A DNA stretch of 64,000 nt from Methylomagnum ishizawai (GTDB lineage: Bacteria > Pseudomonadota > Gammaproteobacteria > Methylococcales > Methylococcaceae). The notes beneath the pieces are model-generated. The model worked only from the letters and a program-made list of their open reading frames with translations. It did not search any database and was not told the origin of the DNA. Shown piece by piece: positions 30,423-32,632 of this stretch (positions within the stretch are counted from its first letter, which is position 1; every line of letters begins with the position of its first letter). The stretch is from the NCBI RefSeq assembly GCF_900155475.1, contig NZ_FXAM01000001.1, positions 855,501 through 919,500 on the forward strand, written 5' to 3'. The translations under genes and the position numbers were made by a program.

Positions 30423-32024
30423 ATGTTCCAAACCCTCCTATCCTGGTTCTTCCGCGGGGATTTCCTGCCCCATGGCAATTGCTTGATCTGGAGCCGGGGC
30501 TTGATCGAACTGCATGTGATTTCCGACGCCCTGACCGGCTTGGCCTATTACTCGATCCCGTTCGGGCTGGCCTTCTTCGTGCGGCGGCGCACCGATCTGG
30601 TCTACCGTTGGATGTTCATCCTGTTCGCCAGTTTCATCCTGGCTTGCGGCACCACCCATTTCTTCGATATCTGGGTGCTGTGGCATCCCGATTACGCCGT
30701 GCAGGGCATCTTGAAGGCGGTGACGGCGGCGGTGTCGGTGTGTACCGCCATCTTGCTGTGGCCGGTGCTGCGCCGGGCTTTGTACCTGCCCAGCCCTGCC
30801 GAGTTGGCACGGATCAACGCCCGGTTGGAGCGCGAAATCGCCTGCCACCGCGAAGCCGTCGCCCATCTGGAGGCCGAGGCCGCCGGGCGGCGGCTGTTGG
30901 AGGAAAAGCTCAGGCGCAACGAAGCCCGGTTGCGGGCCATCCTCGACACCGCCGTGGAAGGCATCGTCACCATCGACGACCAGGGCGTGATCGAACTGTG
31001 CAATCCCGCCGCCGCCCAGATGTTCGGCTACACGGTCGATGAATTGCTCGGGCGCAACGTCAACCAACTCATGCCCCAGCCCTTGCGGGAGGCGCACGAT
31101 GCTCTGCTCGCCAAGACCCGGATATCCAGTCCCAACCGTAGCCTGTCTTGCGGGCGCGAATTGTCGGGCTTGCGCAAAAATGGCTCGGTGTTCCCGGTGG
31201 AAATCGCCGTCGGCGGGTTCGATGGCGGCGGCCTCCATTTCACCGGCATCCTGCGTGATATCAGCGAGCGCAAGGCTTTGGAGGACCGCCTGCAACAACA
31301 GCGGCTTGAATTGCTGCATGTGCATCGCCTCACCGTGGCGGGCGAATTGGCCGCGACCATGGCCCATGAACTCAACCAACCGCTGGGGGCCATCGCCAAT
31401 TACCTGGGCGGGGCCAAGCTCCGGTTCCGCGCCGTGTTCGAGGACCATCCCCGCCTGGCCGAGGCCATCGACGAGACCTTGCGCCTGTCACAACGCGCCG
31501 CCGAGGTGGTGCATGGTATCCGCGACTTGGTCCGGCGGCGCGAGACGGGCCGGGACTGGGTGGCGGTCGAAGCCGTGGTCGATGCCGCCCTGGCCGTGGC
31601 CCGCCAGGAGTTGGCCCGGCGCAAGATCGCCGTGGTCCGGCATCTTCCCGCCGCCTTGCCGCCGGTCTGGGGCCAGCGGGTGCATTTGCAGCAGGTGTTG
31701 TTGAACCTGATGCTCAACGCCATGGAGGCGATGGAAGCCATCCCGCCCGAACGCCGCCGGCTCGCGGTGAGCGCCGGGCCGGTGTCGCCCACGGAAATCG
31801 AAATCGCCGTGGCCGATACCGGGCCGGGGTTTTCCGATGGTTTGGCCGGGACGATGTTCGAGCCTTTCGTCAGCACCAAGGCCAAGGGCATCGGCCTGGG
31901 CCTGTCGATCTGCCGCACCATCGCCGAGGCGCATGGCGGGCATATCGTGGCGGACTCGGTCCCGGACGCGGGGGCGGTGTTCAAACTGGTCTTGCCGACG
32001 GGCGACGGAAGGAGCGGGGCATGA
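30423..32024 (+). CDS. Sensor histidine kinase with ethylene-receptor-like (ETR1-type) membrane domain
   Basis: The 533-residue kinase begins with a three-helix membrane domain (about residues 27-115) that matches the plant ETR1/cyanobacterial ethylene-binding domain. Asp35, Tyr42, Ile45, Pro46, Cys75 and His79 fall at the same relative spacing as ETR1 D25, Y32, I35, P36, C65 and H69; Cys and His hold the Cu(I) that binds ethylene. A PAS domain follows (about 165-285), with His225 and Arg245 spaced as in FixL. The kinase has phospho-acceptor His315 (MAHELNQP), N-box Asn428/Asn432, DTGPGF at 465-470 and GIGLGLS. GGAGA precedes the ATG. It overlaps the regulator gene by four bases. Ethylene sensing is inferred, not shown. 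Confidence 0.88.
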   Translation: MFQTLLSWFFRGDFLPHGNCLIWSRGLIELHVISDALTGLAYYSIPFGLAFFVRRRTDLVYRWMFILFASFILACGTTHFFDIWVLWHPDYAVQGILKAVTAAVSVCTAILLWPVLRRALYLPSPAELARINARLEREIACHREAVAHLEAEAAGRRLLEEKLRRNEARLRAILDTAVEGIVTIDDQGVIELCNPAAAQMFGYTVDELLGRNVNQLMPQPLREAHDALLAKTRISSPNRSLSCGRELSGLRKNGSVFPVEIAVGGFDGGGLHFTGILRDISERKALEDRLQQQRLELLHVHRLTVAGELAATMAHELNQPLGAIANYLGGAKLRFRAVFEDHPRLAEAIDETLRLSQRAAEVVHGIRDLVRRRETGRDWVAVEAVVDAALAVARQELARRKIAVVRHLPAALPPVWGQRVHLQQVLLNLMLNAMEAMEAIPPERRRLAVSAGPVSPTEIEIAVADTGPGFSDGLAGTMFEPFVSTKAKGIGLGLSICRTIAEAHGGHIVADSVPDAGAVFKLVLPTGDGRSGA

Positions 32025-32632
32025 AGGATTCCACGGTGTTCGTGGTGGACGACGACCAGGACATGCGGCAGTCGTTCAAATGGTTGATCGAATCGGTGGG
32101 CTTGCCGGTCGAGGCGTTTGTGTCGGCGGAGGATTTCCTGGCGGCCTACCGGGACGATAGGCCGGGGTGTTTGCTGCTGGATGTGCGGATGCCGGGGATG
32201 GGCGGCTTGCGCTTGTTGGAGCGCCTGCGGGAGTTGGGCTTGTGCTTGCCGGTCATCGTCATCACCGGCCACGCCGAGGTGTGGATGGCGGTGCAGGCCA
32301 TGAAGGCGGGCGCGTTCGATTTCCTGGAGAAGCCGGTGACCCACCAGCAAATGTTGGACCGCATCCAGGACGCCCTGCGCCAGGACCGGGAGCGGCGGGC
32401 GCGGGCCGTGGAATGCGCCGCGTTCCGGCAGCGGTTGGCCCTGCTCACCCAGCGCGAGCGCGAGGTGCTGGACCGCATGGTGCGGGGCGAGCCGAGCAAG
32501 GCCATCGCCCTGGAATTCGGGCTCAGCGAGCGGACCATCGAGAAGCACCGCGAGAACCTCATGCACAAGATGGAGGCGCGGTCGCTGGCGCAGTTGATCC
32601 GGGGGATGGTGGAGTTCGGGCGGGAGGGGTGA
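32021..32632 (+). CDS. FixJ-family response regulator
   Basis: The 203-residue protein is a FixJ/TodT-type transcription regulator and the evident partner of the upstream kinase. The receiver domain (about 1-120) has the acidic pocket at Asp10-Asp12, phospho-acceptor Asp54 (LLLDVRMPG), Thr82 and Lys104 (LEKPV). A LuxR-type helix-turn-helix (about 137-195) carries LTQREREVLDRM and SERTIEKHRENLMHKM. The start overlaps the kinase stop (ATGA), so the two are coupled. Target promoters are unknown; no obvious neighbour is a candidate, since rodA converges 17 bases downstream. Confidence 0.93.
   Translation: MKDSTVFVVDDDQDMRQSFKWLIESVGLPVEAFVSAEDFLAAYRDDRPGCLLLDVRMPGMGGLRLLERLRELGLCLPVIVITGHAEVWMAVQAMKAGAFDFLEKPVTHQQMLDRIQDALRQDRERRARAVECAAFRQRLALLTQREREVLDRMVRGEPSKAIALEFGLSERTIEKHRENLMHKMEARSLAQLIRGMVEFGREG

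Follow-up and report, generated by a model that had tools for sequence, protein, structure and literature searches.

Does a methane-oxidising bacterium possess an ethylene receptor, and if so, is ethylene all that the receptor senses? The question is raised by a pair of overlapping genes in the window, the 64,000-nucleotide stretch of Methylomagnum ishizawai DNA analysed here, which was originally predicted to encode a histidine kinase with an ETR1-type ethylene-binding domain (EBD) translationally coupled to a FixJ-type regulator. Our best reading of the sequence is that the kinase would be a dual sensor, of ethylene/Cu(I) through the EBD and of O2 or redox state through a FixL-type PAS domain that the original prediction missed, along with the FixL-like character of the kinase, three further EBD proteins encoded elsewhere in the host genome, and the abundance of EBDs across the host's order.

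The gene pair

The features of the pair are collected in Table 1. The predicted translational coupling is borne out by the ATGA in which the kinase stop and the regulator start overlap, and the FixJ type of the regulator by the receiver and GerE domains of the downstream product; GGAGAG lies about 8 nt 5′ of the kinase ATG and GGAAGGAG precedes the regulator start, both being good ribosome-binding sequences. The genes around the pair, leuS/lptE/holA and rodA/mrdA, have housekeeping roles and give no hint of a regulon.

Table 1. Features of the kinase and regulator genes (window coordinates)
Feature	Position	Strand	Basis or remark
Sensor histidine kinase gene (EBD, coiled coil, FixL-type PAS, HisKA, HATPase)	30423..32024	+	533 aa; ORF, translation, Pfam domains
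ETR1-type ethylene-binding domain, residues 27-121	30501..30785	+	PF25487 (ETR1_N), E=9e-38; AlphaFold2 helices; hydropathy
Asp35 (ETR1 Asp25, AzoEtr1 D35)	30525..30527	+	alignment
Cys75 (30645-30647) and His79 (30657-30659), predicted Cu(I) ligands, helix 2	30645..30659	+	alignments, residue census, helix 62-87
Long helix/coiled-coil linker, residues 125-176	30795..30950	+	AlphaFold2 secondary structure
FixL-type PAS, residues 169-280; may sense O2/redox through haem	30927..31262	+	PF00989/PF13426; PDB sequence and model matches
His225 (BjFixL His200, haem-iron ligand position)	31095..31097	+	gapless alignment through the region
Cys243 (31149-31151) and Arg245 (31155-31157; BjFixL Arg220)	31149..31157	+	spacing of 18 and 20 after His225
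HisKA dimerisation/phosphoacceptor domain, residues 307-373, FixL-like HELNQPL box, His315	31341..31541	+	PF00512
HATPase_c catalytic domain, residues 418-526	31674..32000	+	PF02518, 5e-20
ATGA shared by the kinase stop and the regulator start	32021..32024	+	sequence; translational coupling
FixJ-like response regulator gene	32021..32632	+	203 aa; receiver with Asp54, then GerE/LuxR helix-turn-helix; PF00072 and PF00196

The ethylene-binding domain

The kinase scores 128.9 bits against PF25487, where the cut-off is 27, and the E value rules out a chance match. All six ETR1 residues that the original prediction singled out are indeed present: D35, Y42, I45, P46, C75, and H79 correspond to ETR1 D25, Y32, I35, P36, C65, and H69. 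I72 also fits a seventh ETR1 residue, Ile62. For D35, C75, H79, and K98 the equivalence has a published basis: the same four residues of Azospirillum brasilense AzoEtr1 have been aligned to ETR1 D25, C65, H69, and K91 (PMC11819568), and AzoEtr1 aligns with the window kinase without a gap. Mutation of Asp25 abolishes binding by ETR1, and AzoEtr1, which has the same EBD residues at the same positions as the window kinase, binds 14C-ethylene (PMC11819568).

AlphaFold2 predicts three membrane helices (residues 25-55, 62-87, and 91-119; pLDDT mostly 76-93), and hydropathy concurs for helices 2 and 3. The pTM of the full-length kinase model, which bears on domain arrangement and helix packing, is low (0.43). 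Cys75 and His79, four residues apart, both fall within predicted helix 2 and are thus inside the membrane helices, not outside them as an erroneous assignment would have placed them. A sequence search of solved structures found no match to the EBD. From the residues and their placement, we consider it probable that the window EBD binds copper and ethylene.

A FixL-type PAS domain and the question of haem

The best PDB sequence matches of the PAS domain are the FixL haem PAS (1e-28) and then DosP (4e-14). Modelled by itself (pLDDT 89), the PAS superimposes on the BjFixL haem PAS with Z 19.4 and 2.0 Å over 139 residues at 37% identity, a fold match that was to be expected because the alignment from which the model was built consisted of FixL-like sequences. 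Rows 1-17 of the VIA-align comparison are all haem PAS domains (FixL, FG214, and DosP; Z 19.4-15.9), with non-haem PAS domains close behind from Z 15.8.

In BjFixL, His200 is the haem-iron ligand and Arg220 touches bound O2 (PMC10765370); more broadly, in the PAS cluster that includes the FixL type, haem binding depends primarily on the F-helix His, which is missing from about 40% of the FixL-type cluster (PMC10468136). The corresponding His225 of the window lies within a predicted helix (residues 221-234) and is invariant in the PAS alignment, and Arg245, exactly 20 residues further on, is kept as well. The distal pocket gives a mixed picture: comparison of Ser240/Leu241/Ile261/Val263 in the window with Ile215/Ile216/Leu236/Ile238 in BjFixL shows three of the four positions to be hydrophobic and the first not. 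That first position (BjFixL Ile215, SmFixL Ile209), which is important for O2 affinity, is Ser in the window and Asp in a relative, G004, and O2 may therefore not be the ligand. Cys243, which is replaced by His in G004, occupies the position that Met95, a distal haem ligand, has in E. coli DosP, and together with Ser240 it suggests that the haem may be six-coordinate, sensing redox state, NO, or CO rather than O2. On these sequence features we incline, somewhat, to the view that the window PAS binds haem.

The chief alternative is that the kinase is simply an ethylene receptor of the AzoEtr1 kind, with the PAS serving as a structural relay or binding some other ligand. AzoEtr1 functions although the FixL His is absent from its PAS, as it also is, as noted, from a sizeable part of the FixL-type cluster; Ser240 stands at the FixL distal position; and two relatives (G002 and G016) have deleted the haem-ligand stretch of the PAS but kept EBD, kinase, and regulator, so that haem is not essential to the lineage. 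Against this, both His and Arg are kept at exactly the FixL/DosP spacing in the host (G000), in its sister species (G001), and in G004, and the nearest solved structures to the window PAS all bind haem. We regard the plain receptor as possible yet doubtful, and retain the dual sensor as our preferred reading.

A FixL/FixJ-like chassis

The best family match of the kinase is NCBIfam FixL (NF041777), with 305 bits over residues 155-528 only and a cut-off of 850 that is not reached; the nearest named family of the regulator is NCBIfam FixJ (NF006900), with 224.6 bits over residues 2-196 and a cut-off of 255, again not reached. Because both equivalog cut-offs are missed, we rejected naming the pair FixL/FixJ proper. 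That the kinase transfers phosphate to its partner regulator is very probable.

A comparison of relatives shows how the EBD is distributed over this chassis. The G001 pair, 95-98% identical, lies in the same leuS/rodA setting; the G004 kinase has the architecture EBD-PAS-PAS-kinase; and three further genomes (G103, G033, and G019) encode kinases without an EBD, having GAF/PAS or PAS-only input and 39-51% identity in the matched part, together with the same kind of regulator. Specifically, i) in the kinase-domain tree the window, G004, G002/G016, and the three EBD-less relatives fall into one clade (100/97) beside FixL-type kinases including BjFixL, with AzoEtr1 far outside; ii) in the EBD tree the window, G004, and G002/G016 group together (96/97); and iii) all 8 of the 8 kinases of the clade have a FixJ-like partner, 52-98% identical. 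The two trees thus place the EBD on only part of a FixL/FixJ-like lineage in one methanotroph family, apart from Azospirillum, and show that its fusion to a FixL/FixJ-type chassis arose independently of Azospirillum; orthology to AzoEtr1 is rejected on the kinase tree. A genome-contig scan of named genomes for close homologues returned only PAS-kinase relatives, all without an EBD.

An EBD followed by a PAS with the His and Arg is also found in scattered other genomes (L186, L187, L190, L191, and L195); among the loci examined, the combination with an adjacent FixJ-like regulator occurs only in G000, G001, and G004. The haem-ligand stretch of EBD-linked PAS domains has apparently been lost repeatedly, in G002/G016 (L111 and L112) and in several g172 genomes of the same phylum (L130, L135, L137, L138, and L141); at L129/L186, sister to the g172 loss loci, the FixL-type His and Arg are kept.

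Host, copper, and ethylene

The host genome (5.48 Mb in 8 contigs) contains three genes of the PmoA/AmoA family, of which two score identically, and adjacent sMMO alpha- and beta-like genes; the host is therefore a methanotroph, as the original prediction had supposed it might be, and has both pMMO and sMMO. This brings up a second alternative, that the EBD reports its own copper loading and that the pair belongs to the copper control of methane monooxygenase (MMO). The EBD does need Cu(I), and a host with copper-dependent pMMO alongside sMMO must manage a copper switch; yet the residues required for ethylene, beyond the copper ligands, are all kept, inspection of the locus neighbourhood places the pair near neither MMO nor copper genes, and EBD proteins also occur in bacteria outside the host's order, so that we think a Cu(I) sensor unlikely. 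It is likewise improbable that the EBD binds another Cu(I) ligand (CO, acetylene, or a metabolic alkene) or is a mere membrane anchor as in rhizobial FixL, whose membrane parts are dispensable for O2 sensing: the ligand specificity of bacterial EBDs has been little tested, but an anchor would not need D35, Y42, P46, C75, and H79, which are kept in five genomes (G000, G001, G004, G002, and G016) even though the EBDs of G004 and G002/G016 share only 50-59% identity with that of the window.

The suggestion that ethylene matters to methanotrophs agrees with the literature, in which it is a real stress: at natural levels (3-50 ppmv) ethylene inhibits the oxidation of methane by soils, methanotrophs show a protein-level response to it, pMMO co-oxidises it to toxic epoxyethane, and it accumulates, alongside methane, in waterlogged, O2-poor soils (PMC11507031). 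Inhibition, a toxic product, and build-up where oxygen is scarce together provide a rationale for reading ethylene and oxygen jointly. A link to CoM-dependent epoxide detoxification was sought through the CoM-synthesis family ComA, which was not found in the host genome.

Possible targets of the regulator

Gene neighbourhoods of the relatives differ. In G002/G016, haem-copper oxidase subunits II (COX2, 9e-10) and I (COX1, 3e-91) lie directly downstream of the pair on the same strand; in G033/G019 the EBD-less pair adjoins NiFe hydrogenase genes; and in G004 the pair is surrounded by glnK, amtB, and another ammonium-transporter gene. All pair-bearing genomes of the examined set also have an oxidase of the G002/G016 type, which in the window genome is unlinked to the pair (C1:3991385), and a search for a shared promoter motif upstream of the oxidase operons of nine relatives gave nothing convincing. 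That respiratory genes are targets of the regulator is thus a tentative suggestion.

In methanotroph genus g11 (L125 and L126), NiFe hydrogenase genes adjoin a FixJ-like regulator and a FixL-like kinase that has GAF/PAS input and no EBD, and this pair is a candidate hydrogenase regulator. Two different EBD genes are found beside glnK-amtB: one, encoding an EBD-PAS-GGDEF-EAL protein of the host (L192 3978-6098; G000:C1 at about 1.115 Mb), is divergent from glnK, and the other is the G004 EBD kinase pair (L110 2593-10377). In A. brasilense, ethylene reduces glnB and amtB transcripts (PMC11819568).

How the pair might work

In the dual-sensor reading, Cu(I) would be held by C75 and H79 in the membrane EBD and ethylene bound through the copper; the EBD signal would travel along the coiled coil of residues 125-176; the cytoplasmic PAS, if loaded with haem at H225, would add O2 or redox state; both domains would act on the FixL-like kinase at His315; and the kinase would phosphorylate Asp54 of the co-translated FixJ-like regulator, switching transcription. 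The likely logic would be that ethylene and oxygen are read together and that respiration and methane oxidation are adjusted in response. We put at about even the chance that an ETR1-type EBD and a FixL-type haem PAS on a FixL-like kinase, with a FixJ-like regulator, constitute a two-component gas-sensing system, and whether one kinase integrates the EBD and PAS inputs seems to us a similarly balanced question. In the fullest version, this would be the first ethylene receptor to be coupled to a sensor of O2 or redox state based on haem (perhaps six-coordinate), and its FixJ-like regulator would reset both respiration and methane oxidation; that is a possibility which we would back only hesitantly.

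Ethylene-binding domains in the host and its order

The window kinase is one of four EBD proteins encoded by the host genome. The other three (L001/L127, L003/L128, and L004/L192) are two c-di-GMP enzymes, EBD-PAS-GGDEF and EBD-PAS-GGDEF-EAL, and a hybrid with the architecture EBD-PAS(x3)-kinase-receiver-Hpt; ethylene-type input may therefore feed several outputs in this host. Across the host's order, an EBD above the Pfam cut-off is found in 125 of 234 genomes, compared with 31 of the 397 genomes in a phylum sample; by genus, the figures are 31/48 (at E ≤ 0.001) and 22/232. Relatedness inflates the significance of both comparisons (Fisher p 2e-38 for genomes and 1e-15 for genera), although the contrast is still large. 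On this survey, ethylene perception is likely to be a general trait of the methane consumers of this order.

Several IMG/VR viral contigs (L158 3001-3420, L161 2881-3333, L164, L165, and L167) encode an EBD as a separate small protein of about 120-170 aa, with no output domain attached. That of L158 keeps every ethylene residue (PF25487, 2e-35); that of L161 lies near a Rep3 replication initiator, and the contig may for this reason be a plasmid or a phage-plasmid.

Within the partial literature covered, we found no paper that describes an ethylene receptor of methanotrophs (PMC11507031 names none), and none that combines "ethylene-binding domain" and "FixL". EBD kinases themselves were already known; here the ethylene-receptor input is fused to a FixL/FixJ-type chassis, and a second sensor based on haem is credible. 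The locus supplies a testable candidate for an ethylene sensor of methanotrophs, together with the transcription factor that is its partner, and hints that a single protein reads both ethylene and oxygen. If this is true, the dual sensor would belong to an order-wide ethylene-sensing repertoire of gammaproteobacterial methanotrophs.

Comparison with known systems

Four systems resemble the window pair in different parts. FixL/FixJ of Bradyrhizobium and Sinorhizobium share with it the His200/Arg220 equivalents, the HELNQPL box, and a FixJ-like regulator, but the membrane part of the window kinase is an EBD, and Ser240 stands at the distal Ile215 position. In the haem PAS of E. coli DosP, His77 and Arg97 have the spacing of His225 and Arg245 in the window kinase, with Met95 at the position of Cys243; DosP differs in its output, a c-di-GMP phosphodiesterase, and in having no membrane EBD. 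SynEtr1 of Synechocystis (slr1212) resembles the window kinase in being a bacterial EBD kinase that carries another sensory domain, and is a two-input receptor for light and ethylene (PMC11819568, PMC7700396); its second input is a chromophore-binding GAF (PMC7700396), whereas the second domain of the window kinase is a FixL-type PAS.

The closest characterised protein is AzoEtr1, which with AzoRR-etr1 forms a pair in A. brasilense and which, as a proven proteobacterial receptor, shows that the original view of the EBD as a domain of plants and cyanobacteria was too narrow (PMC11819568). AzoEtr1 and the window kinase have the same order of domains (EBD-PAS-histidine kinase), nearly the same length (525 vs 533 aa), the same residue numbers for D35, C75, H79, and K98, a kinase gene that overlaps the regulator gene, and 35% identity over the whole length. 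They part company at the second sensor and at the output: the PAS of AzoEtr1 is without the FixL His that the window PAS has as His225, and AzoRR-etr1 is a lone 135-aa receiver with no output domain, whereas the window regulator is a FixJ-like DNA-binding protein.
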